Of a stretch of DNA of 62,422 nucleotides, positions 1 through 33,936 are shown one piece after another. Source of the stretch: Bacteroidaceae bacterium. Lineage in GTDB: Bacteria; Bacteroidota; Bacteroidia; Bacteroidales; Bacteroidaceae. The position numbers and the translations under genes were made by a program. The DNA is taken from NCBI GenBank assembly GCA_017516885.1, contig JAFXAR010000060.1, positions 1-62,422 on the forward strand. Reading direction: 5' to 3'. Under the pieces are notes generated by a model. That model was not told where the DNA came from and did not search any database. It worked only from the letters and a program-made list of their open reading frames with translations. How positions within the stretch are numbered: the first letter of the stretch is position 1; the number at the start of each line of letters is the position of its first letter.

Positions 1-1287
1 ATCAACGGCCACGAATATGTAGACCTTGGCTTGAGCGTAAAGTGGGCCACCTGCAACGTAGGCGCAAGCAAACCCGAAGAGTATGGCAACCACTACGCCT
101 GGGGCGAAACCTCTACCAAGAGCAGCTACACAAAAGACAACAGCGTAACCTACGGCAAGAACTTCAGCGACATAGGCGGCGACCCGCAATATGACGTAGC
201 CCGCAAGCAGTGGGGCAGCACCTGGCGCCTGCCCACCAAAGCCGAGTTTGAGGAACTGCGCAGCAACTGCACCTGGACCTGGACAAAACAGAAAGGAGTA
301 AACGGCTACAAGGTAACCAGCAAGAAGAACGGCAACAGCATCTTCCTGCCTGCTGCCGGTTGGCGTCTTGGTACGTCGCTTAACGGCCAGGGGACTCTCG
401 GTAACTACTGGAGTTCTACGCCTCATGAGAGTAATTCCAACTACGCGTACTACCTGCTCTTCTACAGTGGTGGCCATGGTACGAATTGGCTCGACCGTCT
501 CGGCGGCCTAAGCGTGCGCCCGGTCTCAGGTGGCATAGAAAACAAAACAGAGAAAATGTCTAATGCAAAACCGGAAAGCAACAAACTCTCAACCCGCACC
601 TTCAAAGCAAACGGCGTTGAATTCATCATGGTAGCCGTAGAGGGTGGAACATTCAGCATGGGCTCAAACGATGGCGGGAGTGACGAAGAACCCATACACC
701 AAGTAACCCTTGACAGCTACTGCATAGGCCAGACCGAAGTAACCCAGGCACTGTGGCAGGCAGTAATGGGCAGCAACCCCTCTTATTTCAAAGGAACAAG
801 CAATCCTGTAGAAAGTGTGGGATACTTCGACTGCATAGATTTCATCAACCAACTCAACACCCTGCTTAAAGACCAGCTTCCCCAAGGCCGCAAGTTCCGC
901 CTTCCCACAGAAGCTGAATGGGAATATGCAGCACGCGGCGGAAACAAGTCCAAAGGGTACGAATACAGCGGCAGCAACAGCATAAGCACCGTTGCATGGT
1001 ACGAAGGCAACAGCGTCAGCAGGACACACCCTGTAAAACAGAAGGCAAGCAATGAACTTGGCCTTTACGACATGAGCGGAAACGTAAGGGAATGGTGCAG
1101 TGACTGGTACGGAAGCAACTACTACTCATACTCCCCGCAGAATAACCCCAAAGGACCCGGCAGCGGCTCTCTCCTCGTGCTCCGCGGGGGCAGTTGGGGC
1201 GCCCTTGAGCAGTTCTGTCGTTCGGCGTTTCGCGACGGCAGCGACCCTGGCCGCAGCTACGCCTGCGGTCTGCGCCTCGCCTTCTAA
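1..1287 (+). CDS. FISUMP + SUMF1/FGE domain protein, 3' part (probable receptor kinase)
   Basis: The reading frame is open from base 1, so the 5' end lies outside the window; 428 residues are visible. Residues 2-180 are a FISUMP domain (Fibrobacter succinogenes major paralogous domain; ends with SVRPVSGG). Residues 200-428 are a formylglycine-generating-enzyme/SUMF1 domain (FIMVAVEGGTFSMG near its start, YDMSGNVREW, and the C-terminal GLRLAF). It is a close paralogue of the C-terminal two thirds of the gene at 30927-33320, from which I infer that the missing N-terminus is a kinase plus a membrane helix. Two windows, residues 123-170 and 391-421, differ from the paralogue at codon positions 1 and 2 almost exclusively, while the rest is highly similar; this resembles variable regions of a diversity-generating retroelement target. 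SUMF1 domains of this type usually bind ligand in a C-type-lectin fold rather than act as enzymes. Domain calls are confident; hypervariability is an inference from two copies. Confidence 0.85.
   Translation: MNGHEYVDLGLSVKWATCNVGASKPEEYGNHYAWGETSTKSSYTKDNSVTYGKNFSDIGGDPQYDVARKQWGSTWRLPTKAEFEELRSNCTWTWTKQKGVNGYKVTSKKNGNSIFLPAAGWRLGTSLNGQGTLGNYWSSTPHESNSNYAYYLLFYSGGHGTNWLDRLGGLSVRPVSGGIENKTEKMSNAKPESNKLSTRTFKANGVEFIMVAVEGGTFSMGSNDGGSDEEPIHQVTLDSYCIGQTEVTQALWQAVMGSNPSYFKGTSNPVESVGYFDCIDFINQLNTLLKDQLPQGRKFRLPTEAEWEYAARGGNKSKGYEYSGSNSISTVAWYEGNSVSRTHPVKQKASNELGLYDMSGNVREWCSDWYGSNYYSYSPQNNPKGPGSGSLLVLRGGSWGALEQFCRSAFRDGSDPGRSYACGLRLAF
367..510 (+). other. candidate DGR variable region VR1, copy 1 (FISUMP domain)
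   Basis: This 48-codon stretch inside the FISUMP domain aligns with 32403-32543, one codon shorter. Outside a short indel, 16 codons differ. Fifteen change at position 1, twelve at position 2 and only one at position 3, and nearly all are NNC or NNT codons. The conserved blocks between them (for example YWSSTPHES) are identical in DNA. This is the pattern produced when AAC/AAT template codons are randomised at their adenines. Confidence 0.7.
1171..1263 (+). other. candidate DGR variable region VR2, copy 1 (C-terminus of SUMF1 domain)
   Basis: The last 31 variable codons before the conserved C-terminal GC-rich segment (encoding CGLRLAF) align with 33201-33296. Eighteen codons differ: sixteen at position 1, ten at position 2 and one at position 3, plus a one-codon indel. 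The GC-rich invariant segment directly downstream is placed like the initiation-of-mutagenic-homing site of known DGR targets. Confidence 0.7.
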
Positions 1288-1398: not shown

Positions 1399-1956
1399 TT
1401 TGAGTTCCCTCGCTTCTCCGCGGGATGAACATTTTGCGCCGGAAAAACATACTTAGTGCTCCTCATGCGAAGAGGAGCTGGCTTGCAACTATGTTGCAAG
1501 ACTGAGGAGTAGATGAATAATATGCATGTGATGACTGCCCAACTCCTCCGTCTTCAAAACTTCGTTTTGAATCCACCTCCTCTATGAACAGAGGAGGACT
1601 GAGATTTGATGTTCAAGTGACACGTTTTACTGTTGTTATTCATAGTCTTTGTCATTCCGACCATACCTTAATAAAATAAATCAAAAGAGATTCTCGATGA
1701 GCGCAGCGAAATAACAGCATGTGAGGAATCTCTTTTTTCGCAGTTTGAGTTCCCTCGCTTCGCCGCGGATGACAAGTGCGCGGAAAAAACATTCCAAGTG
1801 CTCCTCATGCGAAGAGGAGCTGGCTTGCAACATAGTTGCAAGACTGAGGAGTAGATGATTATATTCATGTGTTTAATGCCCAAACTCCTCCGTCTTCAAA
1901 ACTTCGTTTTGAATCCACCTACTCTGCGAGCAGAAGAGGACTGCGATTTGATGTTC
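1399..1956. repeat. two copies of a ~175-bp multi-hairpin repeat (A 1441-1613, B 1782-1956)
   Basis: This gene-free stretch holds two copies of a structured repeat, each preceded by a TTTGAGTTCCCTCGCTTC-type block. Each copy contains consecutive hairpins: GCTCCTC/GAGGAGC, CTTGCAAC/GTTGCAAG, TTCAAAAC/GTTTTGAA and CCTCCTCT/AGAGGAGG (the last degenerate in copy B). Loops vary (ATA versus TAT in the second hairpin) while stems are kept, which suggests selection on structure. Between the copies (about 1645-1740) is an imperfect GTCATTCCGA ... GGAATCTC block typical of Bacteroidales intergenic elements. The same arrangement follows the second paralogue at 33431-33936. Small antisense frames across it are not credible genes. 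Confidence 0.8.
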
Positions 1957-23893: not shown

Positions 23894-23920
23894 TAAACAG
23901 AACTAAATCAATAGAATACT

Positions 23921-25396
23921 ATGATACTTAAACCGGGTTCTCTGTTGCAGAATGGCAGATACAGGATAGAAAAGGAGTTAGGCCAGGGCGGATTTGGCAT
24001 AACATATCTTGGCGTCCAGAGTGGGCTTGAGCGCAAAGTCGCTATCAAGGAGTTTTTCATGAAGAGCCTGTGCAACCGCGATTCTGACACTTCGGGCGTT
24101 TATACGCTATCCCAGTCAAGCTCAGCGATTGTGGAGCGCTTCCGCACAAAGTTTATTAAGGAAGCGCAAAGCATAGCAAAGCTGTCGCACAAGAATATAA
24201 TCTCCGTGATTGATATTTTTGAGGACAACAATACTGCCTATTATGTGATGGAATATCACGCGGGAGGCTCTCTTTCTGAAAAAGTAAGCAATAAGCCTCT
24301 TGCCGAAGAGGAGGCATTGGTTTATATACGCCAGCTGGCATCGGCTTTGGAGTATTTGCATTCAAGGAACATGATGCATCTTGATGTCAAGCCTGCTAAT
24401 GTGCTGCTTAATTCAGTTGGTGAGGCGGTTTTGATAGACTTTGGCCTCGCAAAGCAGTATGATGAAAAGGGCATGCAGACAAGTACCACTCCGGTGGGCA
24501 TAAGCCATGGATATGCGCCCCTTGAGCAATACACAAGCAATGGAGTAGGAAGTTTCTCTCCTGCAACTGATATTTACTCTCTCGGAGCGACTTTGTATAA
24601 GCTGCTTACTCGTCTTACACCGCCCGAGGCAAGTTTTGTTCATGACGAAGGGTTGCCCGAATTGCCCGATAATATATCAAAGCCGGTGCGTGAGGCAATA
24701 GTTGCAGCTATGCAGCCGCGCAAAAAGGACAGGCCGCAGAGCGTGGCTGAGTTCCTTAAGCTGCTGGACTGTAAAGAACCGCTGGAAGATAAAGAAACTG
24801 AGGTTGCTGTTGAGACTGTTGACACTGCTGAGACAACACGGATTTCAGCTTCCGAAAATAAAGTTTCACCTGATGAAAACAGGAGCGGAAGCGAAAGAAC
24901 TGTTGTAGAGCAGCCAGTTTGGAAAAAGCCGTTTGAAAAGAAAATGCCGGACTTATCCCATGTAAGGAAACAGTTGAAGAATGGTATAGCCGAGAACTCA
25001 AGGGCTCTTAAGATTCTGCTTGTTGCAGTTGTTGCTGCAGTTGTTCTCATTGGAGGCTTTTATTTAATAAGATGTCTTGTTGTTGATAACAGGGTGGAGG
25101 ATGCGGAAACAATGTACGAGGAGGCCGTAAATGAGTACTCTGATGTTGAGAAGCCGCTCCTTAAGATAACTTCAAACCCAAGCGGCGCTGAGGTGTATGT
25201 AGAGGATGACTATGTTGGAACAACTCCGTTGGAATATACATTAGAGCCAAATTCTTATAAGTCTGTCAGGATTATAAAATCGGGATATGAAGATGTGAAA
25301 TTTGATGATCATTTCATATCAGGGCCTTATAAGTTGAATGTTGAAATGAAAAAACGGAATAGTTCAGATTCGCAAAGCGATTATTACTGGTATTAG
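23921..25396 (+). CDS. transmembrane Ser/Thr protein kinase with PEGA domain
   Basis: A 491-residue protein. Residues 13-280 are a Hanks-type kinase: glycine loop GQGGFG (21-26), VAIK lysine K43, catalytic loop HLDVKPAN (a non-RD kinase, Leu before Asp) and DFGLAK. Residues 285-360 are an acidic linker, about 363-385 a single transmembrane helix (LLVAVVAAVVLIGGFYL), and 418-470 a PEGA domain (SNPSGAEVYVEDDYVGTTP), usually extracytoplasmic and surface-layer or wall associated. Predicted topology is kinase in the cytoplasm and PEGA outside. The kinase domain is clearly paralogous to that at 30927. Exact 17-bp repeats lie on both sides of the gene in inverted orientation. Confidence 0.92.
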   Translation: MILKPGSLLQNGRYRIEKELGQGGFGITYLGVQSGLERKVAIKEFFMKSLCNRDSDTSGVYTLSQSSSAIVERFRTKFIKEAQSIAKLSHKNIISVIDIFEDNNTAYYVMEYHAGGSLSEKVSNKPLAEEEALVYIRQLASALEYLHSRNMMHLDVKPANVLLNSVGEAVLIDFGLAKQYDEKGMQTSTTPVGISHGYAPLEQYTSNGVGSFSPATDIYSLGATLYKLLTRLTPPEASFVHDEGLPELPDNISKPVREAIVAAMQPRKKDRPQSVAEFLKLLDCKEPLEDKETEVAVETVDTAETTRISASENKVSPDENRSGSERTVVEQPVWKKPFEKKMPDLSHVRKQLKNGIAENSRALKILLVAVVAAVVLIGGFYLIRCLVVDNRVEDAETMYEEAVNEYSDVEKPLLKITSNPSGAEVYVEDDYVGTTPLEYTLEPNSYKSVRIIKSGYEDVKFDDHFISGPYKLNVEMKKRNSSDSQSDYYWY

Positions 25397-30926: not shown

Positions 30927-33320
30927 ATGCAACTTATAAAGGGAACAGAACTAAAAAGGGGCGATTACCGCATAATAGACGTTCTTGGACAGGGCGGTTT
31001 CGGCATAACGTATCTTGCCCAGCAGATTGGCCTCGGCCGCAAGGTGGCAATCAAGGAGTTCTTCATGAAAGACCTCTGCAACCGTGGCGATGACGGTTCG
31101 CAGGTGTCGGCAGGTTCAACTGGCAGCAAGGACTTGGTGGAGCGCTTCAAGCAGAAGTTTCTTAAAGAGGCCCGCCTGATAGCTTCATTCAATAATGCCC
31201 ACATTATACGCATCCACGATGTCTTTGAGGAGAACGGCACGGCCTACTATGTAATGGAGTACCTTGAGGGCGAGAGCCTTAAGGAGGTTGTTGACAATAA
31301 CGGCGCGCTGCCCGAAACCGTTGCTGTAAAATACATACTTCAGGTTGCCGATGCCCTTTCAGCAGTTCATGCCAATAATCTGCTGCACCTTGATGTCAAG
31401 CCCGCCAACATAATGCTCGACGAAAACTGCAATGCGGTGCTCATTGACTTTGGCGTCTCAAAGCACTACGACGAGAAGGGTGCTCAGACCAGCAGCGCCG
31501 GAGTAGGCCTCAGCGAAGGCTATGCGCCGCTTGAACAGTATGAGGCCGGTTCGCTAAAGGAGTTCACTCCCGCTACCGATATATATGCCCTTGGCGCAAC
31601 CCTTTTTATGTTGCTTACCGGTACACGTCCTCCCAAAGCCAGTGTTGTGAACGACGATGGCCTTCCCCCTATGCCCACAGCAATATCAGCGCCTGTTCGC
31701 AAGGCCGTTGAGAAAGCCATGCAGCCGCGCCGCAAGGACCGTCCGCAGAATATCGATGAATTTGTGAAATTGCTTAAGCTCCCAAACCCCAAGCCAAATA
31801 ACAACAAATGGCAGTGGATTGCTATTCTGCTGCTGATTATAATATGCGGAGCATTAGGCGGCTTTATGTTCATTGGCAGCGGAGGTAATGATGAATTAGC
31901 CGATACATCTGTCAAGCGCACTGAACAGACAACTGTAAAAACCGATACCGCCAATAAGGAAAATGATAAATTGGTAAAAAAGGAGAACGAAGAAGATAAG
32001 GTAAATACCGCCTTTGCGACCGGCAACATCATCAACGGCCACGAATATGTAGACTTGGGTTTGCCCAGCGGACTCAAGTGGGCCACCTGCAATGTAGGCG
32101 CAAGCAAACCCGAAGAGTCTGGCAACCACTACGCCTGGGGCGAAACCTCTACCAAGAGCAGCTACATAAAAGAGAACAGCGTAACCTGGGGCAAAAACTT
32201 CAGCGACATAAGCGGCAACCCCACTTACGACGTTGCCCGCAAGCAGTGGGGCAGAACCTGGCGCCTGCCCACCATAGCCGAATTTGAGGAACTGCTCAAC
32301 AACTGCACCTGGACCTGGACAGAGCAGAACGGTATAAACGGCTGCAAGGTAACCAGCAAGAAGAACGGCAACAGCATCTTCCTCCCTGCTGCCGGTTGGC
32401 GTGATGAGTCGCTTAACTACCAGGGGACTGGCGGTTACTACTGGAGTTCTACGCCTCATGAGAGTCTTTCCCTCGGCGCGTACAGCCTGTACTTCCGCAG
32501 TGGTCGCCATCGCACGAATTGGAACAACCGTGACTACGGCCAAAGCGTGCGCCCGGTCTCAGGTGGCATAGAAAACAAAACAGAGAAAACGTCTAATGCA
32601 AAACCGGCAAGCAACAAACTCTCAACCCGCACCTTCAAAGTAAAGGACGTGGAATTTACCATGGTAGCCGTAGAGGGCGGCACATTCAGCATGGGCTTAA
32701 ATGTTGGCCGTGATGACGAAAAACCGATACACCAAGTAACCCTTGACAGCTACTTTATTGGCGAAACCGAAGTAACCCAGGCACTATGGCAGGCAGTAAT
32801 GGGCAGCAACCCCTCTTATTTCAAAGGAACAAGCAATCCAGTGGAACAAGTAAACTACAACGACTGCATAGATTTCATCAACCAACTCAACACCCTGCTT
32901 GAAGACCAGCTCCCCCATGGCCGCAAGTTCCGCCTCCCCACAGAGGCTGAATGGGAATATGCAGCCCGCGGAGGCAACAAGTCAAAAGGCTACAAATACA
33001 GCGGCAGCAACAGCATAAGCACCGTTGCATGGTACGGTGACTACGGCGGCACGACACATCCTGTAAAACAGAAGGCAGGCAACGAACTCGGCCTTTACGA
33101 CATGAGCGGAAACGTATACGAATTGTGCAGTGACTGGTACGGAAGCAACTACTACTCATCCTCCCCGCAGAATAACCCCAAAGGACCCGGCAGCGGCTCT
33201 AAACGCGTGTTCCGCGGGGGCTGTTGGAACCACAATGAGTGGGTCTGTCGTTCGGCGCGTCGCAGCTGCGGCGGCCCTGGCAGCCGCGGCAGCACCTGCG
33301 GTCTGCGCCTCGCCTTCTAA
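30927..33320 (+). CDS. Ser/Thr kinase - TM - FISUMP - SUMF1 receptor with two variable regions
   Basis: A 797-residue modular protein. Residues 13-285 are a Hanks-type kinase (glycine loop GQGGFG 21-26, K43, HLDVKPAN at 154-161 with D156, DFG at 174-176; non-RD). About 295-316 is a transmembrane helix (IAILLLIIICGALGGFMFI). 320-365 is a charged linker. 366-545 is a FISUMP domain, and 575-797 a SUMF1/FGE-like domain ending GLRLAF. Predicted topology is kinase inside and FISUMP/SUMF1 outside. Residues 493-539 and 759-790 are windows that differ from the left-edge paralogue almost only at codon positions 1 and 2, as in DGR targets with C-type-lectin folds. All kinase active-site motifs are present, so a ligand-responsive receptor kinase is a fair inference. 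It follows the LRR gene by 51 bp. Confidence 0.92.
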   Translation: MQLIKGTELKRGDYRIIDVLGQGGFGITYLAQQIGLGRKVAIKEFFMKDLCNRGDDGSQVSAGSTGSKDLVERFKQKFLKEARLIASFNNAHIIRIHDVFEENGTAYYVMEYLEGESLKEVVDNNGALPETVAVKYILQVADALSAVHANNLLHLDVKPANIMLDENCNAVLIDFGVSKHYDEKGAQTSSAGVGLSEGYAPLEQYEAGSLKEFTPATDIYALGATLFMLLTGTRPPKASVVNDDGLPPMPTAISAPVRKAVEKAMQPRRKDRPQNIDEFVKLLKLPNPKPNNNKWQWIAILLLIIICGALGGFMFIGSGGNDELADTSVKRTEQTTVKTDTANKENDKLVKKENEEDKVNTAFATGNIINGHEYVDLGLPSGLKWATCNVGASKPEESGNHYAWGETSTKSSYIKENSVTWGKNFSDISGNPTYDVARKQWGRTWRLPTIAEFEELLNNCTWTWTEQNGINGCKVTSKKNGNSIFLPAAGWRDESLNYQGTGGYYWSSTPHESLSLGAYSLYFRSGRHRTNWNNRDYGQSVRPVSGGIENKTEKTSNAKPASNKLSTRTFKVKDVEFTMVAVEGGTFSMGLNVGRDDEKPIHQVTLDSYFIGETEVTQALWQAVMGSNPSYFKGTSNPVEQVNYNDCIDFINQLNTLLEDQLPHGRKFRLPTEAEWEYAARGGNKSKGYKYSGSNSISTVAWYGDYGGTTHPVKQKAGNELGLYDMSGNVYELCSDWYGSNYYSSSPQNNPKGPGSGSKRVFRGGCWNHNEWVCRSARRSCGGPGSRGSTCGLRLAF
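32403..32543 (+). other. candidate DGR variable region VR1, copy 2 (FISUMP domain)
   Basis: Partner of 367-510. Codons at the variable sites read TAC, GGC, TAC, CTT, CTC, GGC, AGC, TAC, CGC, CGC, CGC, AAC, AAC, GAC, TAC and CAA, nearly all NNY. Two adjacent AAC codons may be unmutated template codons. The invariant GC-rich flank encoding SVRPVSGG follows. Confidence 0.7.
33201..33296 (+). other. candidate DGR variable region VR2, copy 2 (C-terminus)
   Basis: Partner of 1171-1263, one codon longer. Variable codons include AAC, CAC and AAT in a row opposite GGC, GCC and CTT in the other copy, with identical third bases. Invariant DNA encoding CGLRLAF plus the stop and 104 bp of shared non-coding DNA follow. 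Confidence 0.7.
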
Positions 33321-33430: not shown

Positions 33431-33936
33431 GTTTGAGATCCCTCGCTTCGCTGTGGAATGCACAGCGCGCGGAAAAAACATTCCAAGTGCTCCTCATGAT
33501 AAGAGGAGCTGGCTTGCAACATAGTTGCAAGACTGAGGAGTAGATGATTGTATGCATGTGATGACTGCCCAAACTCCTCCGTCTTCAAAACTTCGTTTTG
33601 AATCCACCTCCTCTATGGGATAGAGGAGAACTGAGATTTTATGTTCAAGTGACACGTTTTGCTGTTGTTATTCATAGTCTTTGTCATTCCGAACCAAAGG
33701 GAGGTATCTCTTATTTCGCTGTCTGAGATCCCTCCTGTCGTCGTGATGAACATTTTGCGCGGAAAAACATTCCAAGTGCTCCTCATGCGAAGAGGAGCTG
33801 GCTTGCAACATAGTTGCAAGACTGAGGAGTAGATGATTGTATGCATGTGTTTAATGCCCCAACTCCTCCGTCTTCAAAACTTCGTTTTGAATCCACCTCC
33901 TCTATGGGATAAGAGGAGGACTGAGATTTGATGTTT
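33431..33936. repeat. two more copies of the multi-hairpin repeat (C 33471-33648, D 33762-33936)
   Basis: Same four consecutive hairpins as copies A and B near the left edge, with the same lead-in block (TTTGAGATCCCTCGCTTCG in C). Loops differ between copies while stems are mostly kept. The A-spacer-B and C-spacer-D order, including ATTCATAGTCTTTGTCATTC between them, is conserved, so the whole tail was duplicated with the gene. No credible coding frame exists; the remaining bases to 34040 hold nothing I recognise except a TATCTTCG -7-like box near 34012. Confidence 0.8.

Follow-up and report, generated by a model that had tools for sequence, protein, structure and literature searches.

Predicted membrane receptor kinases with lectin-type domains as probable targets of a diversity-generating retroelement in a Bacteroidaceae genome

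Results

The window, i.e., the whole stretch of DNA analyzed here, is the 62,422-nucleotide contig JAFXAR010000060.1 (C58) of a Bacteroidaceae bacterium, whose assembly (GCA_017516885.1) comprises 2.31 Mb in 75 contigs and is 86.8% complete. At 30927-33320 it carries a gene in which, as the original prediction had it, a Hanks-type kinase, a transmembrane (TM) helix, and two lectin-type domains are joined in one frame, the first of these two domains matching its profiles below their cut-offs (Table 1). The kinase motifs GQGGFG, VAIK, HLDVKPAN, and DFG are present, with HLD replacing HRD. The Lcl_C match covers residues 381-544 at about 32 bits (Pfam cut-off 34.9), and the TIGR02145 FISUMP match of 23.5 bits lies under the curated cut-off of 41.65; "FISUMP-like" is therefore the safe name. 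When the FISUMP profile was compared with the PDB, HbP1 was the best match, with an E-value of 0.003 that we do not take as proof of fold, and a single-sequence search of the PDB gave 0 matches up to E 1.

Table 1. Features of the window that are considered in this study
Feature	Position	Strand	Basis or remark
Diversity-generating retroelement (DGR) variable protein, kinase - TM - FISUMP-like - FGE	30927..33320	+	single ORF, 797 aa
Hanks-type Ser/Thr kinase domain, residues 14-243	30966..31655	+	Pfam Pkinase E 7e-37
Single transmembrane helix, residues 298-316	31818..31874	+	mean hydropathy 2.87 over 19 residues
FISUMP-like / Lcl_C-like domain	32022..32570	+	Lcl_C 31.9 bits, TIGR02145 23.5 bits, both below cut-off
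VR1, homologous to the G019 template repeat	32386..32559	+	variable codons about 32404-32542
FGE/SUMF1-type domain, residues 578-796	32658..33314	+	Pfam FGE-sulfatase E 5e-47; PDB 2y3c E 2.5e-40
VR2, variable codons of the FGE domain	33201..33299	+	codon pattern, L138 template repeat comparison
Second FISUMP-FGE gene (C58a), both variable regions	1..1287	+	contig start truncates 5' end

Each lectin-type domain contains one variable region (VR); the stretches pointed out originally, 32403-32543 and 33201-33296, fall within VR1 and VR2, respectively. VR1 is located at the 3' end of the gene in paralogs without an FGE domain, and VR2 at the 3' end of the FGE domain. The 3' end of VR1 (AGCGTGCGCCC) is almost constant among copies, and that of VR2 (CTGCGCCTCGCC) is identical across six copies.

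In the protein encoded at 30927-33320, lysines precede the lone TM helix and the first stretch of acidic residues follows it. By eye, signal-peptide-like N-termini were seen in a paralog on contig C16 and in two proteins with the same variable domain from a genome of the same genus (G019). The single helix, the charge pattern, and these relatives favor a predicted placement of the FISUMP/FGE part outside the cytoplasm. The extracytoplasmic sensor that had been proposed is favored for this protein. A TM helix is found in nine of the ten kinase genes and is lacking in the copy on C49.

Two copies of a 149-base intergenic repeat lie behind each FISUMP-FGE gene of the window (1443-1933 and 33474-33911). 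They are 77-96% identical to the reference copy, an arrangement that might be expected if each gene had been duplicated along with its tail. A further ORF with kinase motifs and a TM helix, and with no FISUMP or FGE match, is located at 23918-25393.

What had been described as a single receptor gene keeps its architecture but is really a member of a family, with 13 close copies of the FISUMP window in the genome, ten of which are in genes with a kinase. A BLAST search of the genome with the VR1 window gave these 13 matches of at least 150 bits, among 28 at E up to 10, and the VR2 window gave six copies among 11 matches, all six of which enter the VR2 counts. The 13-VR set corresponds to 17 FISUMP windows found by pattern, minus five divergent windows (two each in L015 and L021 and one in L019), plus L008, which the pattern had missed; L017 and L020 fall outside the set. 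Nine of the kinase genes are uncut and all nine retain the HxD-KPxN and DFG motifs, and one (C7) is cut by the contig end. Between the TM helix and the FISUMP domain, the paralogs have repeats that we take, from their look, to be PEGA-like or Sel1-like, or none. The C16 and C1c proteins are of a PEGA-like-FISUMP-FGE type with no visible kinase, C1c being cut by the contig end. Both VRs occur in five genes (C58b, C58a, C16, C1b, and C1c). An additional contig-cut kinase gene on C8 has VR2 and lacks a VR1 resembling the template repeat (TR).

The DGR used for comparison is that of G019, on a contig (C47) identical to JAFTRV010000087.1 from a Bacteroidaceae MAG of roe deer cecum. It consists of a FISUMP VR, a MutS-I-like ORF, an Avd-like ORF (47.8 bits against the DGR Avd model, cut-off 80), and a reverse transcriptase (RT) with GLPIGNLSSQ and YVDD motifs, with the TR lying within the RT reading frame. 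Four G019 VRs differ from their own TR at 17-28 of 58 adenines and at 0-1 of 122 other positions. At L089 (contig C65 of G019), a caspase-like protein (283-1146) with SGHG and DACHSG motifs, as judged by eye, adjoins a FISUMP target. A DGR accessory ORF at 592-1119 of L087 matches MutS domain I with 20.8 bits (cut-off 20.6).

Codon alignment of the paralogs shows that the variable codons of VR1 are of the form NNC or NNT, with the third base almost fixed. Third-position divergence is 0.076 inside VR1 versus 0.273 just upstream. When the five two-domain paralogs are compared in pairs, they differ on average by 0.29/0.22/0.04 (codon positions 1/2/3) in VR1 and by 0.16/0.12/0.30 in the constant part of the FISUMP domain. 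The same comparison gives 0.37/0.27/0.11 for VR2 and 0.07/0.09/0.15 for the linker with the constant part of the FGE domain, and variation is thus concentrated in both windows and spares third codon positions, in line with what had been foreseen.

Adenine bias was measured against TRs from other sources, namely that of the congener G019 for VR1 and that of L138 for VR2, the latter an unrelated IMG/VR contig on which a DGR-type RT and an FGE-type TR accompany an FGE VR. When the 13 VR1s are set against the G019 TR, three or more bases occur at 37 of 57 adenine sites versus 3 of 120 others (Fisher p 4e-20), and at 36/53 versus 2/65 when only codon positions 1 and 2 are counted. The constant part of the FISUMP domain, taken as a control, is flat, with 19/84 adenine and 44/207 other sites (p 0.88), or 13/69 and 14/125 (p 0.19) when third positions are left out. 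For the six VR2 copies, three or more bases are found at 20 of 29 adenine sites of the L138 TR versus 2 of 70 others (p 4e-12), and leaving out third positions gives 20/28 versus 2/38. Both windows therefore bear the DGR signature that had been predicted for them. With VR2 as the query, 44 genomes of the genus yielded one weak match (G036:C80, E 6e-4) besides the six copies of the genome studied here.

The 13 VR1s agree on 17 bases that are not those of the G019 TR, no site having more than two exceptions, and 14 of these bases are at third positions. This agreement implies that the lineage had a template of its own. Ten of the 13 VR1s deviate from the VR majority at just 1-4 of 118-120 non-adenine sites, and these ten carry a non-A base at 22-31 of 55-57 adenine sites. 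The VR1s of C48, C56, and C7 show 15, 8, and 7 non-adenine differences from the VR majority, and some copies may be decaying. Because non-adenine differences are few and third-position divergence is low inside VR1, rewriting appears recent relative to the divergence of the genes, and the simplest reading of these alignments would be that the VR1s were recently copied from one lineage-specific template.

None of the components of such a DGR (RT, TR, Avd, or MutS-like accessory) was found in the 86.8%-complete assembly. The only RVT_1 match of the genome, on contig C41, was rejected as a DGR RT, being a UG27-type DRT (434 bits); this UG27-type defense-associated reverse transcriptase occupies 1276-2985 of L001 and has an ORF upstream. 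RTs of the genus with GLRSSQ or GLRTSQ motifs (L050, L051, L053, L054, and L057) were not taken as the source, nor were two phage-like DGRs (L095 and L096), whose RTs are only 32-33% identical to that of G019. These two loci, in G064 and G004 of the same genus, are phage-looking in that a variable target is accompanied by an ORF that is lysozyme-like by eye. In viral contigs, the TR-like pattern gave 0 matches, no G019 RT was confirmed, and FISUMP had one weak relative (L120).

DGR loci with kinase targets were found elsewhere in the order. L119 (JAFUDQ010000005.1, a Bacteroidales MAG of roe deer omasum) has FHA, PP2C, and caspase genes, followed by a kinase-TM-Big_2-FISUMP gene, an Avd-like ORF (20.8 bits, cut-off 40), and an RT with TR; the VR of its kinase gene mismatches the TR at 21/53 adenines and 2/139 other positions. 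In L240, from a genome of completeness 100 (G384), two kinase-TM-FISUMP genes adjoin an RT, together with FHA and PP2C genes and two caspase genes; mismatches of the two kinase targets are at 24/57 adenines versus 2/151 others and 24/58 versus 4/152. RTs matching the search profile (E up to 1e-40) occur in 21 of 344 order genomes. According to a motif scan, kinase-FISUMP targets are present at these two of 24 fetched DGR-RT loci, which are made up of 4 plus 20, the 20 being from 30 RT places in the order scan, and several of which are contig-cut. The kinase-FISUMP DGR design thus recurs in further families of the order and looks uncommon.

At L117, the outer FISUMP copies mismatch at 12/39 adenines versus 3/80 other positions and at 13/40 versus 1/80, and the middle copy (18/38 versus 38/77) was rejected as a target. 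The VR of L118 has a diverged 5' half (19/52 adenine versus 20/121 other mismatches). L154 was rejected as a kinase-bearing locus, since the translation of the frame with its pattern match does not look like a kinase. At L092 (contig C40 of G063), the kinase part is encoded in one frame and the FISUMP part in another that overlaps it, and the gene looks broken. An ORF at 6838-7617 of L119 has an N-terminus resembling the MutS-I-like accessory, by eye, fused to an Avd-like part.

Discussion

In our view, held with a probability of roughly 0.8, a DGR acts in trans in this lineage, or did so until recently, on at least 13 targets, of which ten are kinases and the gene at 30927-33320 is one. If the enzymology is that of known DGRs, an error-prone reverse transcriptase would copy a TR RNA and make its errors at adenines, and the cDNA would replace the VR of each target. 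The sequences show the resulting pattern, in which roughly half of the template-adenine positions are altered in each copy and the remainder is fixed. VR2 would be served by a second, FGE-type template. The most likely location of the protein is the inner membrane, its kinase lying inside and its two variable domains in the periplasm or beyond, where a ligand, once bound by the variable face, would switch the kinase. In the relatives L119 and L240, kinases of this kind adjoin PP2C, FHA, and caspase genes, which suggests that they take part in a phosphorylation circuit whose output is proteolytic and may serve suicide or defense; such genes were not seen beside 30927-33320 in the window.

The original prediction had counted the lack of an RT and a template in the genome against itself, and none is in the assembly, but the 13 windows share a lineage-specific template signature. 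Since the assembly is incomplete and this signature is shared, our reading is that RT and TR went missing with a contig or were lost recently. Loss in assembly or binning is likely, as contigs C58, C1, C7, and C8 end inside a family gene, C48 and C56 end within about 350 bases of one, and the G019 cassette stands alone on a 3.4-kb contig. The same features count against a fossil repertoire, in which the receptors were diversified by a DGR whose RT and TR have since disappeared, leaving them fixed. An assembly with no RT, Avd, accessory, or TR is what that history would leave, and the non-adenine changes in C48, C56, and C7 fit it too, but ten of the 13 VRs are nearly clean at non-adenine sites and the third positions of VR1 have diverged far less than those upstream. 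We regard this special case of DGR action as unlikely.

A role as surface adhesins or phage parts, to which the kinase would be incidental, seems improbable. Phage-looking DGRs do exist in the genus, and FISUMP targets without a kinase are found in G019 and on C16. Nevertheless, the neighbors of the target in the window resemble ordinary chromosomal genes, as judged from their sequences, the RTs of the phage-like loci are distant from that of G019, and the kinase is kept in most targets with its motifs intact in every uncut copy. Ordinary paralog divergence, positive selection, or gene conversion of lectin-type domains with no retroelement involved could draw on many paralogs in one genome and on repeats able to recombine, but is very hard to reconcile with variation that tracks the adenines of independent templates, with third bases that hardly change, with a flat control, and with the finding that DGRs elsewhere have proteins of this kind as their cognate targets.

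With the DGR reading preferred, we can tentatively extend it to gut Bacteroidales, although with somewhat less than even confidence: in an anticipatory system, the ten or more membrane receptor kinases of a genome, presenting one or two independently retro-mutated lectin-type faces apiece, might feed a kinase-PP2C-FHA-caspase circuit for immune or social recognition at the surface.

The closest solved chain to the FGE part is TvpA (Treponema denticola variable protein 1, 2y3c; E 2.5e-40). Both belong to the same domain family, and the variable C-terminus of the FGE domain aligns with the C-terminus of TvpA, which is presumably the variable stretch of TvpA. Unlike the protein studied here, the 294-residue solved chain has no kinase, and it matches the FGE part along 29-291. 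Receptor kinases of the PASTA/PknB type have an N-terminal kinase, one TM helix, and a sensor beyond it. The layout here is the same, with an NF033483 match of 162.8 bits (cut-off 450), but the sensor is a retroelement-varied lectin-type domain instead of PASTA. TvpA is itself a DGR target, according to part of PMC7159879.

The original prediction called a transmembrane kinase with two variable windows unusual or undescribed. "Undescribed" is too strong, as sections of PMC7517822 report cyanobacterial DGR targets with a Ser/Thr kinase and a C-terminal CLec, which have remote paralogs and are mostly predicted to be cytosolic, with some TM localization mentioned. The present family is a variant of these published kinase-lectin targets, with which it has in common the N-terminal kinase, the DGR-varied lectin-type C-terminus, the remote targets, and the hypothesis of a ligand-switched kinase. 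It differs from them, as far as those sections describe them, in that it belongs to Bacteroidales, nine of ten kinase targets have a TM helix that precedes the variable part, the varied domain is FISUMP-like, and FISUMP and FGE VRs are combined in one chain. The novelty of two windows is likewise reduced, given that a target set with several VRs (15 targets, 21 VRs) is described in part of PMC10907252. Putative conflict sensors of multicellular bacteria, in the portions of PMC10907252 and PMC7159879 that treat them, resemble our family in having lectin/FGE VRs on signaling proteins and several targets and VRs per genome; they are largely STAND and MoxR-vWA proteins, whereas here receptor-type kinases of Bacteroidales are concerned, with PP2C, FHA, and caspase genes in two relatives.

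The word "kinase" is absent from the main-text portion of Roux et al. (PMC8144416) and from the review PMC10053308, and FISUMP was not found together with "diversity-generating" in open-access PMC papers. No title on Bacteroidales receptor kinases appeared among the open-access PMC matches listed, a scope outside which most subscription papers, preprints, and supplements lie.

By joining a DGR to a one-pass receptor kinase, the ligand sensed could change and the signal sent could stay unchanged. Thirteen sibling genes rewritten from one template constitute a natural experiment, and the readable output of a kinase makes the role of the DGR testable, be it phage sensing, neighbor recognition, or glycan sensing. 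DGR action can moreover be demonstrated with the template of a relative where the genome's own cassette is missing from the assembly.

At L013 (contig C7), a 51-base in-frame imperfect tandem duplication is present at the 5' edge of the VR (PAAGWR...PAAGWR), perhaps the product of a faulty homing event.
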